DNA from: Candidatus Poribacteria bacterium
Lineage (GTDB): Bacteria > Abyssobacteria > SURF-5
NCBI GenBank assembly: GCA_016215705.1
Contig: JACRIR010000146.1
Span: forward strand, 1-10,080
Length of the DNA: 10,080 bases
Direction of reading: 5' to 3'
A program made the translations under genes and the position numbers. Each line of letters starts with the position of its first letter. Position 1 is the stretch's first letter. Below are positions 282 to 9,676 of this stretch, one piece after another. A model generated the notes under the pieces. That model did not search any database and was not told the DNA's origin. It saw only the letters and a program-made list of their open reading frames with translations.

Positions 282-318
282 CAAATCCCCCTCAATCCCC
301 CTTTGCGAAAGGGGGAAG
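282..318 (+). repeat. C-rich dispersed hairpin repeat, intergenic copy
   Basis: The order is CAAATCCCCCT, then a spacer, then CCCCCTTTGCGAAAGGGGG, which folds into a short GC-rich hairpin. The same element occurs in the opposite orientation at about 8522-8555 inside the hydrolase gene. Translated, it gives the peptide NPPLxKG, a common sign of this repeat type in annotated genomes. Confidence 0.7.
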
Positions 319-400
319 GAACAGGCTACCTTGCTAAAGGGGATGATAGGTTCACCATGTTTCATCTCTTTTTCTCCCTTTCGCCTTTCGCCTTCCTCTG

Positions 401-1714
401 TTATGCGCAGAAGCTCGAGACGACGCGGTGCATCATCCGTGTTCCGAATGTGAGGTTTTCAATCGAGATTCTTTCGTTTGCGCCGTGGATCGTCGCGATG
501 TCGTCTCTGGTCACAATGATGGGCGCGAACCCGTAAGCCGGCACACCCTTTAATCGAAGGAAACGCGAGTCTGTTCCGCCGGGCATCATGAGGGGACTGA
601 CGAGATACTCGGGATGACCTGCGGTGATCACTTGTTCGATCGTGGAGTAAATCTCGGTGTCGATCGGCGATTCCGTCGCTTCATTAAAGATATCGAATTC
701 CAGCTTCATTTTCTCTGTTGAGCCTGCCAGCCGAAGGATTGTGGTTTCGATTTCTTGCCGGGTGACGCCGGGCAGGAGCCTGCAATCAATCATGAGCTCA
801 CAAGTGTCGGGGATCACGTTCACTTTGACTCCGCCTTTTATGGCTGTAGGGGTGATTGTGGTCCGCAGCATGACTTTGACCATATCGTCTTTGACGAGTT
901 TCAGGAGGAGGTCTCCCAGAAGGGGGATACTGAGGAGCTTGAGCAGATGCGCGCGCGCGTCCGCTTTCGAGAGAACCTCCGCGAAACGTCGCAGTGTGTC
1001 GGTGACAACAATCGGTGTGCGATAGTCCGTGATATTCTTTATCGCCCGGGCCATATGGAGCGTCGCATTATCCGAATGCGGCATCGAGCCGTGTCCGGCC
1101 CGCCCTTTCGCCGTCAGTTTCACCCATGTCATACCCTTTTCCGCGTTCGAGCACATGAAAATCGTCTTGGCGCCGAACTTCATAGCGGACCCACCTTCGT
1201 TCAGGGCGCATTCGGCCTTTATTTTATCGAAGTGGTTGTCCACCATCCACACGGCTCCGTGTTTGCCGCCGGTCTCCTCGTCGGCATTGGCCATGAAGAT
1301 TATGTCACGCTTCAGGGGAATTCCATGTCGCTCGAGGAGGAAAATGGTCATGAGGTGCATCACGGTCAGGTTCTTGGTGTCGAGGGTTCCGCGGCCCCAG
1401 AGGAATCCGTCGCGAATCTCGCCGGAGAAGGGAGGGACCTCCCAGTGAGAGCTTTCTGCCGGAACAACGTCGATGTGCGACATGAGGAGGAGCGGTTTTT
1501 TCGAGCCGTCGCCTCGCAGCCGGCCGACGACGTTCGCTCTCCCCGGAGCAGACTCGAGCACAAGAGACTCGATGCCTTCCTTTGAGAGCAGCGCAGCGAT
1601 GTATTTGGCGCATGCGAGTTCATTGCCGGGTGGGTTCGTGGTGTCGAACCGCACGAGGTCAGCAAGATATCGGGCGGCTTCGTCGGTCGCGGCTTTCCAA
1701 TCGATGTCGTTCAT
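401..1714 (-). CDS. M20-family zinc metallohydrolase (peptidase/deacylase)
   Basis: A 437-residue cytoplasmic enzyme of the M20 (ArgE/DapE/carboxypeptidase S/PM20D1) clan, which hydrolyses amide bonds using two metal ions. Visible landmarks: metal ligand H80 in MSHIDVVP with D82, the bridging ligand D112 in GRGTLDTK, the catalytic-base and metal Glu pair in ADEETGG (E146, E147), an ALNEGG motif, a dimerisation-domain glycine/histidine stretch (GRAGHGSMPH), PGGTDSRF (D382) and the C-terminal metal His in IHGANE (H410). All five metal positions appear intact. The NEGG motif and overall layout fit the carboxypeptidase S/PM20D1-like branch, so N-acyl amino acids or peptides are possible substrates; the exact one cannot be read. 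I chose the ATG at 1714 because GGGAGG lies 9 nt upstream. The frame stays open to 1843, but that extension translates intergenic repeats. An intrinsic terminator separates it from fadN, so it probably has its own promoter, which I could not identify. Confidence 0.92.
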   Translation of the reverse strand: MNDIDWKAATDEAARYLADLVRFDTTNPPGNELACAKYIAALLSKEGIESLVLESAPGRANVVGRLRGDGSKKPLLLMSHIDVVPAESSHWEVPPFSGEIRDGFLWGRGTLDTKNLTVMHLMTIFLLERHGIPLKRDIIFMANADEETGGKHGAVWMVDNHFDKIKAECALNEGGSAMKFGAKTIFMCSNAEKGMTWVKLTAKGRAGHGSMPHSDNATLHMARAIKNITDYRTPIVVTDTLRRFAEVLSKADARAHLLKLLSIPLLGDLLLKLVKDDMVKVMLRTTITPTAIKGGVKVNVIPDTCELMIDCRLLPGVTRQEIETTILRLAGSTEKMKLEFDIFNEATESPIDTEIYSTIEQVITAGHPEYLVSPLMMPGGTDSRFLRLKGVPAYGFAPIIVTRDDIATIHGANERISIENLTFGTRMMHRVVSSFCA

Positions 1715-5657: not shown

Positions 5658-5997
5658 GATGATCCTCCTTGATCCAGTTTGATCGAAATGCAATTGATGA
5701 TGTTTGGAAACCCTGCGGGCACGCTTACTTATGGAAGCGGGGGTATCGCCGCAGGCTAACGTTAGGCGAAAGGCGAAAGGGGAATCGGAGGAAACCCATA
5801 GTGTTCTCGCCTGCCCTATCCGCTTTTTCGCACTGCGCAGTTGCGAATTCATTTACAGGACCGAATTCGGGCCATAAACTACCGGCGCTTTGCGCTTCAC
5901 AGAATCTTATCAGAAGAAACGGGGTTTTGCAAATTGGACGCATTGCGTCATTCCGTTTTCGCCTTTTGACGGTTTCCCCTTTTCCCGCTCTATTGCA

Positions 5998-6038
5998 GAA
6001 AATCGGGGACACGATGCCGCATCGTGTCACCGATTTTC
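5998..6038. repeat. Palindromic repeat, copy 4 (20-bp arms, one mismatch)
   Basis: Arms 5998-6017 and 6019-6038 surround a single C at 6018 and pair except at 6029, where A replaces the C of the family core (GTGTCACC instead of GTGTCCCC). The outer ends are GAAAATC/GATTTTC, so both strands have a short T-run after the stem. It lies 96 nt past the dehydrogenase stop codon. Confidence 0.85.
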
Positions 6039-7397: not shown

Positions 7398-7418
7398 TGC
7401 GAGCACCTCCGATCAGTT

Positions 7419-7476
7419 CACGGTCTACGGTTTGCGGTCACGGTCTACGGTTTGCGGTTTACGGTTTACGGTTACC
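7419..7476. repeat. Heptamer array in the acyl-CoA dehydrogenase leader
   Basis: A 20-bp unit, CACGGTCTACGGTTTGCGGT, is repeated exactly (7419-7438 and 7439-7458), followed by TTACGGTTTACGGTTACC. The underlying period is about 7 bp (TACGGTT/TGCGGTY; AAACCGT on the coding strand). It ends 8 nt before the GGAGG SD (7406-7410), so it would form part of the 5' leader if the promoter lies upstream. Confidence 0.75.
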
Positions 7477-7706: not shown

Positions 7707-9500
7707 TCAATGGATCATTTCTCTGAATCCGATTTCAGTTACCAGCGGAATCAGGCCGGCCAGGAATCCATTAAATGTAGTAACTCTGACCCACCATGAC
7801 AAGAACCAGTCGCCGGTCGTGGCGAAGAGATAGGTGGCCGGAACCTCGCATGCGACCATGAGTACAAAGAGTGTGACAGCGCCTGCCGTGAGAAACTCTC
7901 CCACCGGCGGCGGCATGAAAAACGCGGCGCCGCCTACTGAGAGCGCTGCGATAAGGCTTCCGGCCAGCCCCAGCGCAAAGCCGGTCTGCCAGTCGGTTGC
8001 GCACTGAACGCCCCGGCGCAGGAATTCATCCAGCGCGAAATAGCTTCCGGTGATGGCTCCGGCCAGAGAGAAACATAATAATCTGCGTCCCGTCGGCATC
8101 ACTCCTGCCAGCCACCGATCAAAGAGAAGCAGTGTTGCCGTTAACCCGATCAGGACCACTCGCGTTGTCCACGCTCCGCGAGGCGCGCCTGCGCCAAGCT
8201 TCGGTCTGGCTGCGGCAGTAATTGTCAGTGGAGCAGCCGCTATCAGGAAGAAGATCAGAACCCTTCCATAAACAAGCAGCGGGATTCGTTGGCCCAACGT
8301 GACCACGTTTGCGAGAGCAGCGGCGAGCGCCCAACCGGCAAGGATTAATAGTAGCATGGCCCACGCAGGGATTGCCTTATTGTTTCCCCCTTTTTGCGTT
8401 CCTCCACTATCTCCCCCCTTTTGCGCTACCTCATTGTCTTCGCCCCTATGCACTGCCTCGTCATCTTCTCCTCTATGCACTGCCTCGTCATCTTCTCCTC
8501 TATGCACTGCCTCATCATGTTCCCCCCTTTGCAAAGGGGGGTTAGGGGGGATTTGACAAGGGACGGTTCGCGAACCGTCCCTACATTCGGATTGCGGATG
8601 GGGGATTTCCTTGTCAGTTCGATTTTTCGGAAAAGCGAGGCCGAGACCCACGACTGCGACTGTGGCCGCCAGCAGAGCGCACAGAGCAAGTATCGGAAAT
8701 CTAATGGCGCTGCTGACACGGACTTTTGTGTCCGGGTTCCCGCTGATCTGGTTTATCCACTCTCCTATCCGGCGTTGTGAGTCTGCTTTCAGGAAGATGT
8801 TGAAATGGTTGCTCTTGGGCAGAATCCTGAACATCCGCGCTGTTCCGGCCTTCATGTCGCCGTACAGTGTTTCGATCTCCGGATGGACCAGACCCGTCCC
8901 GCTCATCAGCGAAACGTACGCCTGTTGCTTGATATTACCGAAGTCGTTTTCGGCAACCAGAATCAACACATTGGCAGGATGTTCGGTATCAAGAGCGGCC
9001 GACACGGGGGACATCACAATCACCCCGTCGACCGACGGAATCTCGTTCCCCGTCTGAAGGGCATAGCGTGTGCCCTCGCTGTGGCCTATCAAAAACAACG
9101 GGAGATTGGGAGCGTCCGATATGAAATCCTGTGTGGCCTCGGTCGACTCGACGGGATGCGACTTGTATGACATCTCCACCGGCGAATTCGGCGAGCCGGA
9201 GTGCGCGACGAGACGCACGGCATGGCCGGACCGAAGCAGCGTGAGGGCGAGCGGGAAATACACTTGCGTGCTTGCCGCGAATCCCTCATAGATGACAACG
9301 CGGCCGACTTCGGGTTTGCGCGGGTGCGCGTCATAGAACGAAAGGTCGTATCCGAGCGTTTCGGACCGGAATGAATCCCAGTGCCCGCCAAAGCGAAAAA
9401 GCTCCCATATTCCGGCGGCGTGGAATGCCAGCGTGAACATGAGACCAGTCGCAAGTATCCCTAATCCGACCTTGCGTTTGCGCGTCCATCCATCGGCCAT
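7707..9500 (-). CDS. Alpha/beta-hydrolase fused to a multi-pass membrane domain
   Basis: A 597-residue membrane protein I do not recognise as a named family. An N-terminal membrane anchor (about 12-30) leads into an alpha/beta-hydrolase fold (about 45-255). Its nucleophile elbow is G139-H-S141-E-G143, with likely acid D186 (VAENDF) and base H232 (KSNHFNIF), so a full Ser-Asp-His triad is visible. A second membrane helix (about 268-290) is followed by a hydrophilic linker (about 306-376) made of repeat-derived peptide. The C-terminal half (about 379-596) has some six or seven hydrophobic segments. The linker includes SRTVPCQIPPNPPLQRG and 9-residue units of the RGEDDEAVH type. Serine hydrolase activity is inferred; the substrate is unknown. 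There is no Shine-Dalgarno before ATG 9500, but a promoter abuts it. The next ATG (9440) would remove the first helix. It ends 309 nt before the acyl-CoA dehydrogenase start. Confidence 0.85.
   Translation of the reverse strand: MADGWTRKRKVGLGILATGLMFTLAFHAAGIWELFRFGGHWDSFRSETLGYDLSFYDAHPRKPEVGRVVIYEGFAASTQVYFPLALTLLRSGHAVRLVAHSGSPNSPVEMSYKSHPVESTEATQDFISDAPNLPLFLIGHSEGTRYALQTGNEIPSVDGVIVMSPVSAALDTEHPANVLILVAENDFGNIKQQAYVSLMSGTGLVHPEIETLYGDMKAGTARMFRILPKSNHFNIFLKADSQRRIGEWINQISGNPDTKVRVSSAIRFPILALCALLAATVAVVGLGLAFPKNRTDKEIPHPQSECRDGSRTVPCQIPPNPPLQRGEHDEAVHRGEDDEAVHRGEDDEAVHRGEDNEVAQKGGDSGGTQKGGNNKAIPAWAMLLLILAGWALAAALANVVTLGQRIPLLVYGRVLIFFLIAAAPLTITAAARPKLGAGAPRGAWTTRVVLIGLTATLLLFDRWLAGVMPTGRRLLCFSLAGAITGSYFALDEFLRRGVQCATDWQTGFALGLAGSLIAALSVGGAAFFMPPPVGEFLTAGAVTLFVLMVACEVPATYLFATTGDWFLSWWVRVTTFNGFLAGLIPLVTEIGFREMIH
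8370..8531 (-). repeat. Six-unit 27-bp tandem array inside the hydrolase gene
   Basis: Units of 27 bp lie at 8370-8396, 8397-8423, 8424-8450, 8451-8477, 8478-8504 and 8505-8531. Units at 8451 and 8478 are identical (plus strand CACTGCCTCGTCATCTTCTC then CTCTATG). The unit at 8505 shares its first half with them but ends like the adjoining C-rich repeat, and units towards 8370 are increasingly diverged. In protein each unit is nine residues, starting [Q/H][R/K]G[E/G]. Since 27 is divisible by three, gain or loss of units keeps the frame. Confidence 0.85.
8522..8555 (-). repeat. C-rich dispersed hairpin repeat, copy inside the hydrolase gene
   Basis: A perfect 20-bp palindrome, CCCCCCTTTG/CAAAGGGGGG (8522-8541), is followed by TTAGGGGGGATTTG. 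On the minus strand the order CAAATCCCCCC, TAA, CCCCCC is the same as in the intergenic copy at 282-318. It contributes the residues IPPNPPLQRG to the linker. Confidence 0.8.
8559..8582. repeat. 24-bp perfect palindrome inside the hydrolase gene
   Basis: AGGGACGGTTCG (8559-8570) is followed directly by its exact reverse complement CGAACCGTCCCT (8571-8582), with no loop. It encodes RDGSRTVP in the linker. It abuts the C-rich repeat, so two distinct mobile-type palindromes are stacked in the coding sequence. Confidence 0.85.
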
Positions 9501-9537: not shown

Positions 9538-9608
9538 AAAAGCATTTATGACAGGCACAAAGGCCAAATTCTATTTCGGCGGTGATAGGCGTTTCGGAGA
9601 GATGACAC

Positions 9609-9676
9609 AGAAAATCGGGGACACGATGCCGCATCGTGTCCCCGATCTTTCTGTTCGGCATCGTGTCCCCGGTTTT
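9609..9676. repeat. Palindromic repeat, copy 5 plus an extra half-unit
   Basis: The core arms 9614-9629 and 9631-9646 are perfect 16-bp reverse complements around a C at 9630; the outer end differs by a one-base slip (GATCTTTCT against AGAAAATC). A second right arm, GGCATCGTGTCCCCGGTTTT (9657-9676), follows in direct orientation, giving a 1.5-unit structure. Confidence 0.85.

Follow-up and report, generated by a model that had tools for sequence, protein, structure and literature searches.

The stretch of DNA analysed here (the window, 10,080 nt) carries on its minus strand a gene for a membrane-anchored alpha/beta hydrolase, whose parts and repeat elements are listed in Table 1. The protein matches PF12146 (Hydrolase_4) in Pfam with an E of 8e-9 and 35.6 bits, against a gathering cut-off of 27. 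Both the nucleophile motif G-H-S-E-G (GxSxG) with S141, and H232, are invariant in an alignment of six sequences. A sigma-70-like promoter match (11/12) is located at 9537-9508 of the minus strand, ending 8 bases before the hydrolase ATG; if this match is real, the hydrolase mRNA would be nearly leaderless. Within the gene, an ATG codon (M382) opens the C-terminal part. Outside the gene, a tandem array spans 7416-7473, immediately upstream of the gene for an acyl-CoA dehydrogenase; its unit is the 7-bp GTTTACG, although a 20-bp unit can also be read.

Table 1. Coordinates of the hydrolase gene, its parts and the repeats in the window
Feature	Position	Strand	Basis
Membrane-anchored alpha/beta hydrolase gene	7707..9500	-	ORF, 597 aa
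N-terminal TM helix; Hydrolase_4 domain; TM helix	aa 66-169 (Hydrolase_4); aa ~267-289 (TM helix)		Pfam, hydropathy, AlphaFold
Repeat linker; C-terminal multi-helix membrane domain	aa ~300-378; aa ~376-597		alignment, hydropathy, AlphaFold
Whole insertion, ~79 codons, aa ~300-378	~8367..8603, approximate edges	-	absent from homologues in alignments
24-bp perfect palindrome AGGGACGGTTCGCGAACCGTCCCT, low-copy interspersed repeat; encodes RDGSRTVP	8559..8582	.	
C-rich double hairpin AAATCCCCCC-n-CCCCCCTTTGCAAAGGGGGG; encodes QIPPNPPLQRG	8520..8555	-	
27-bp tandem array, ~six units	8375..8533	-	TRF, two rows, scores 72 and 145
Intergenic copy of the linker's hairpin family	282..318	+	inverted pair (282-317), 36 nt, 86%
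GGGGACACGATG palindrome copies (second family)	174-222, 1810-1858, 5989-6037, 9601-9649		

The linker of this hydrolase is a mosaic of repeats. The original prediction had described a 24-bp palindrome, a C-rich hairpin with an intergenic relative and a 27-bp array, lying end to end without disrupting the frame. Sequence matches, the inverted pair and TRF recover all three elements, and the 597-codon frame is open across the entire repeat run. The repeat origin of the linker is thereby upheld, with a small refinement of its proposed extent of 71 codons: the unalignable stretch is slightly longer on the 8603 side. Likewise, the three repeats are present, but the array probably does not stand as an independent element, its units resembling the right arm of the hairpin. 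The hairpin core, CCCCCCTTTGCAAAGGGGGG, occupies 8522-8541, and its outer arm GGGGGGATTT reaches 8555; two such cores occur in the window, and no such match was found in 200 dinucleotide shuffles. The units of the array grade from EHDEAVHRG/EDDEAVHRG into GDSGGTQKG and then GNNKA, and the unit alignment shows their resemblance to the hairpin right arm plus 17 bp of flank, suggesting that the array probably grew out of that arm. Arm-versus-unit scores (18, 18, 14, 10 and 14 along the array, unit by unit) are a weak test of this link, the 99% point being 18 for random segments of the same gene that include the array; the link therefore comes mainly from the alignment in register. No Rfam family was found in the window. 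The coding strand of the insert showed no terminator-like site, and the folding of its RNA is only moderately more stable than that of shuffles (z -2.06), so that we do not favour a role as RNA. The 12-bp ATCCGCAATCCG motif adjoining the palindrome was considered as a repeat family and rejected on its mild enrichment (17 occurrences versus 5 in one shuffle).

Comparison with homologues delimits the insertion. A paralog encoded by the same genome (L003) and a homologue from a family relative (L002) pass straight from FP..KRTGREI into the membrane domain in the alignment, and relative to both, the hydrolase of the window carries ~79 additional residues. The stretch is also missing from three more full-length homologues, of which two come from Chloroflexota records and the third from a record titled uncultured archaeon; in each of them, a single chain carries both domains. 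Linker-free homologues with directly aligning flanks had been predicted, and all five are of this kind; since all are only ~20-24% identical to the window protein, the insert edges are approximate. No homologue closer than ~24-28% identity over long stretches was found in 386 genomes and two contig scans.

As previously proposed, the linker is predicted to be disordered and to lie between a membrane helix and the C-terminal membrane domain, the latter placement agreeing with both hydropathy and AlphaFold predictions. In the AlphaFold model, residues ~290-375, between helices 267-289 and 376-397, have a pLDDT of 30-33 and no secondary structure, compared with ~67-87 across most of the hydrolase core. 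The model is modest overall (mean pLDDT 53, four-sequence alignment), and pLDDT is also low in the C-terminal membrane domain; thus, the low linker values support disorder without proving it alone. Additionally, 87% of the linker residues are disorder-promoting, and we consider the linker to be probably disordered and flexible. Taken at the level of sequence, the reading of this linker as captured repeat DNA is supported.

The hairpin belongs to a family that is dispersed throughout the source genome, a draft of 270 contigs in which repeat copies often lie at contig ends. With two mismatches allowed, the core yielded 225 and 235 matches by strand (reversed pattern, 0 and 1), and since it is nearly palindromic, these correspond to ~230 places in the genome. 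A stricter core was found 108 times in the source genome, 10 times in G002 and 3 times in G001; the hairpin is far commoner in the source genome than in these two known relatives. The 24-bp palindrome, with up to 3 mismatches, has 8 copies in the source genome, 2 in G002 and 0 in G001, and 0 in the reversed-pattern control. The genic fraction was counted in a 1.13-Mb sample of the source genome with 81 cores, the contigs having been picked mostly for holding the repeat, which inflates the density and should leave the genic fraction unbiased. There, 69 copies are intergenic, 11 lie inside called genes and 1 at a gene edge; set against the 79% of the sample that a simple gene caller marked as coding, the 11 in-gene copies indicate strong depletion from genes. 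The core measures 20 bp, or 33-46 bp with its outer arms, and an arm, AAATCCCC or GGGGATTT, stands beside 71 of the 81 cores versus 1.4% of random positions. Two in-gene arrays and an intergenic one have arms on either side that point outward, in the arrangement AAATCCCC...GGGGATTT. Intergenic hairpins often occur as dimers 73-82 bp apart with inward outer arms (8 pairs, e.g., L062:17455, L077:3101 and L083:6933), the opposite of the arms around the in-gene arrays.

Nine of the 11 in-gene copies fall in seven genes with intact frames, the hydrolase included, a count based on an open-frame requirement that frame-breaking insertions escape. The two other calls, L086 (GlnD-like) and L137 (MFS transporter), are likely not true insertions: the former is a weak match without arms, and the latter, like L005 and L048, was rejected as a probable 5′ leader read as coding. 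Empty sites or split domains were found for six of the seven genes; in the seventh, a double ABC ATPase (L139), the hairpin lies between the two ATPase domains. The closer relatives available for the other genes, with up to ~75% identity, give sharper empty sites than those of the hydrolase. An oxidoreductase (L092) has 32 extra residues, and its orthologues in G001 and G002 lack the insert and are ~63-76% identical in the flanks; no target-site duplication was resolved at this empty site, where the relatives are too diverged in DNA. In a CoA-ligase/RNase H fusion (L093), an array of 30-bp units and a hairpin occupy the interdomain linker, which is much shorter in the orthologues of G001 and G002 (62-75% identical). 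The toroid-like protein L018/L143, so called from its sequence and having no Pfam match, contains ~80 residues that are absent from the G001 orthologue (44-52% identity). In a GT2 protein (L088), two hairpins enclosing decayed cores split PF00535 between profile positions 48 and 53. In a TMEM260-like protein (L098), a 27-bp array and a hairpin are located near aa 610-650. At another place, the frame of L098 runs through a different palindrome, GGGGACACGATGCGGCATCGTGTCCCC, whose insert splits PF11028 between profile positions 69 and 76; this split thus tests the second palindrome and not the hairpin. In all, hairpins have entered at least seven protein genes and left the frame intact, and in several of these they have been multiplied into spacers that are probably flexible.

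A second palindrome family, GGGGACACGATGCNGCATCGTGTCCCC, has 100 loose matches in the 1.13-Mb sample and four longer copies in the window (GGGGACACGATG, Table 1). Within called genes, it was located at L098:12914-12974, clearly in the domain-splitting insert, and at L065:6939 and L143:162. The second window copy in Table 1 extends over the 5′ end of an ORF for an M20-like peptidase; the gene model of this ORF ends at 1756, and its true start probably lies downstream.

The repeats are open in most reading frames. According to the state of a variable base, no more than two of the six frames are closed by a stop in the hairpin consensus; the 24-bp palindrome and the second palindrome family contain none in any frame. 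Thus, a hairpin insertion with a net length that is a multiple of three survives. The peptides encoded by the hairpin are rich in Pro, Gly and Lys (NPPLQRG, PPFAKGG, SPLCKGG and similar), and PPLxKGG-type peptides met in annotation can be a sign of translated repeat DNA rather than of a conserved motif. Tandem periodicity was found beside 4 of the 11 in-gene hairpins versus 2 of the 69 intergenic ones (p 0.003), an enrichment that rests on four genes, both intergenic copies belonging to a single locus. The in-gene periods are 27, 30, 27 and 30 bp, and the best intergenic periods are 29-34 bp. Considering all tandem arrays in the sample, the period is divisible by 3 in 60/81 in-gene and 42/129 intergenic arrays (p 4e-9); this excess is an ordinary signature of frame selection.

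Based on these observations, we propose, with a probability of roughly 0.8, that a hairpin repeat was captured in a loop of the hydrolase and then amplified in tandem, giving a neutral or nearly neutral linker. A hairpin-forming interspersed repeat that had proliferated in the genome would have inserted between the membrane helix and the membrane domain, where the 24-bp palindrome, a different palindromic family, is also located. The Pro/Gly/Lys-rich and probably disordered repeat peptide would be tolerated in linkers and surface loops. Tandem duplication of the hairpin arm and adjoining DNA would have followed, probably through slippage, and units of 27 or 30 bp, which preserve the frame, would have been retained; frame-breaking insertions would be lost or would go unrecognised. 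The linker, presumably expressed as part of the hydrolase chain, would most likely be flexible and neutral or nearly so.

The array may instead have arisen, after the same capture, from individual hairpin copies inserting one after another where an insertion was tolerated, all at a single site, an origin that we regard as unlikely though worth weighing. A decayed hairpin core is found in each unit of L088, L093 and L098, and double or clustered insertions in one gene have been reported for intragenic REPs (PMC3733652). Nevertheless, the DNA between the cores repeats in register in the hydrolase, L093 and L098. This spacer is common within a gene and different between genes, which indicates duplication in place and is directly explained by it.

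Still less probable is positive selection on the linker, in which capture and expansion would have been favoured for a longer charged spacer that gives the hydrolase domain freedom to move against the membrane domain. The richness of in-gene copies in arrays would agree with such selection, as would the location of the repeat between domains in three of the seven genes (the hydrolase, L093 and L139). The differences between adjacent 27-bp units, 3, 7 and 10 at codon positions 1, 2 and 3, point the same way, but the differences are too few for a dN/dS test, and the array enrichment has the four-gene basis given above. Moreover, the repeats of L088 and L092 are located in loops within a domain, as expected if any tolerant site serves, and the sequence of the repeat peptide varies freely between genes. 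That two genes were joined by chance or misassembly, with an accidental open frame and a separately translated C-terminal membrane domain, is very improbable: M382 could serve as a start and repeats break assemblies here, but both domains are on a single chain in all five homologues, from several groups, which contradicts two separate genes, and a like in-frame pattern recurs in six other genes.

Extending the capture-and-amplification proposal, we tentatively suggest that this lineage could have a standing route to flexible linkers, in which a stop-poor hairpin inserts in frame where domains meet, after which amplification of its arm proceeds in 27/30-bp steps that preserve the frame. Linker length would then evolve fast, through one mechanism common to many unrelated proteins, and a similar repeat might act likewise in cyanobacteria. 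In a BREX pglX gene of Planktothrix agardhii (L152:4094-7711, plasmid NZ_LR882946.1), two closely similar hairpins, read in frame as PPLTPPYQRGE...SPLSKGGWGG, directly precede the methyltransferase motif DPACGSGH. Polaromonas PglX has a shorter, divergent segment at that place and no clean empty site. The Planktothrix hairpins belong to another phylum, and any common descent of the repeats would be hypothetical.

In-gene capture of palindromic repeats is established for the Rickettsia palindromic elements (RPEs) and for intragenic REPs (PMC2229807, PMC10969869, PMC3733652). RPEs, described by Ogata and Claverie, have been reviewed (PMC2229807, PMC10969869), and an RPE-bearing Gmk is translated and active, though its affinity is altered (PMC2229807). 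Like RPEs, the present hairpins are palindromic repeats found in intergenic regions and in frame inside unrelated conserved genes. In contrast, RPEs are ~105-150 bp long and encode a conserved peptide, whereas the C-rich double hairpin is ~33-46 bp long and read in several frames, a distinction drawn from size and reading frames and not from a consensus comparison; tandem amplification inside genes is a feature of the present hairpin.

REPs are also similar, being palindromes of 20-40 bp, mostly intergenic, some of which lie inside genes of modular proteins (PMC3733652). Intragenic GTAG/CGTC REPs have been proposed to lie in flexible linkers or loops, and their clusters encode 43-82 aa (PMC3733652). 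The GTAG/CGTC tag at one end of REPs is absent from the present core; inspection by eye of the listed hairpin copies revealed neither this nor another recurrent end tag, their ends being the AAATCCCCCC / GGGGGGATTT arms. The enterobacterial RU/ERIC and the Neisseria Correia repeats are likewise small mobile repeats with open frames fused to host genes (PMC2229807, PMC2759123). They are different, longer repeats (~100-170 bp), most families of which show target-site duplications, whereas none was resolved here.

Within this established phenomenon, the present genome shows many intergenic copies together with copies in frame in unrelated conserved genes and absent from their orthologues or homologues. 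Noncoding repeats have here turned into coding sequence, outside the intracellular bacteria in which the effect was first described, and for several genes of this single genome empty sites serve as controls. In the literature searched, mostly without subscription papers, we found no description of this hairpin family or of frame-preserving amplification of its arm inside genes. The hairpin family, its in-gene amplification in 27/30-bp units and the mosaic linker look new within known palindromic-repeat capture, and the arrays suggest a step past capture itself, in which a linker grows out of the repeat while the frame is preserved.
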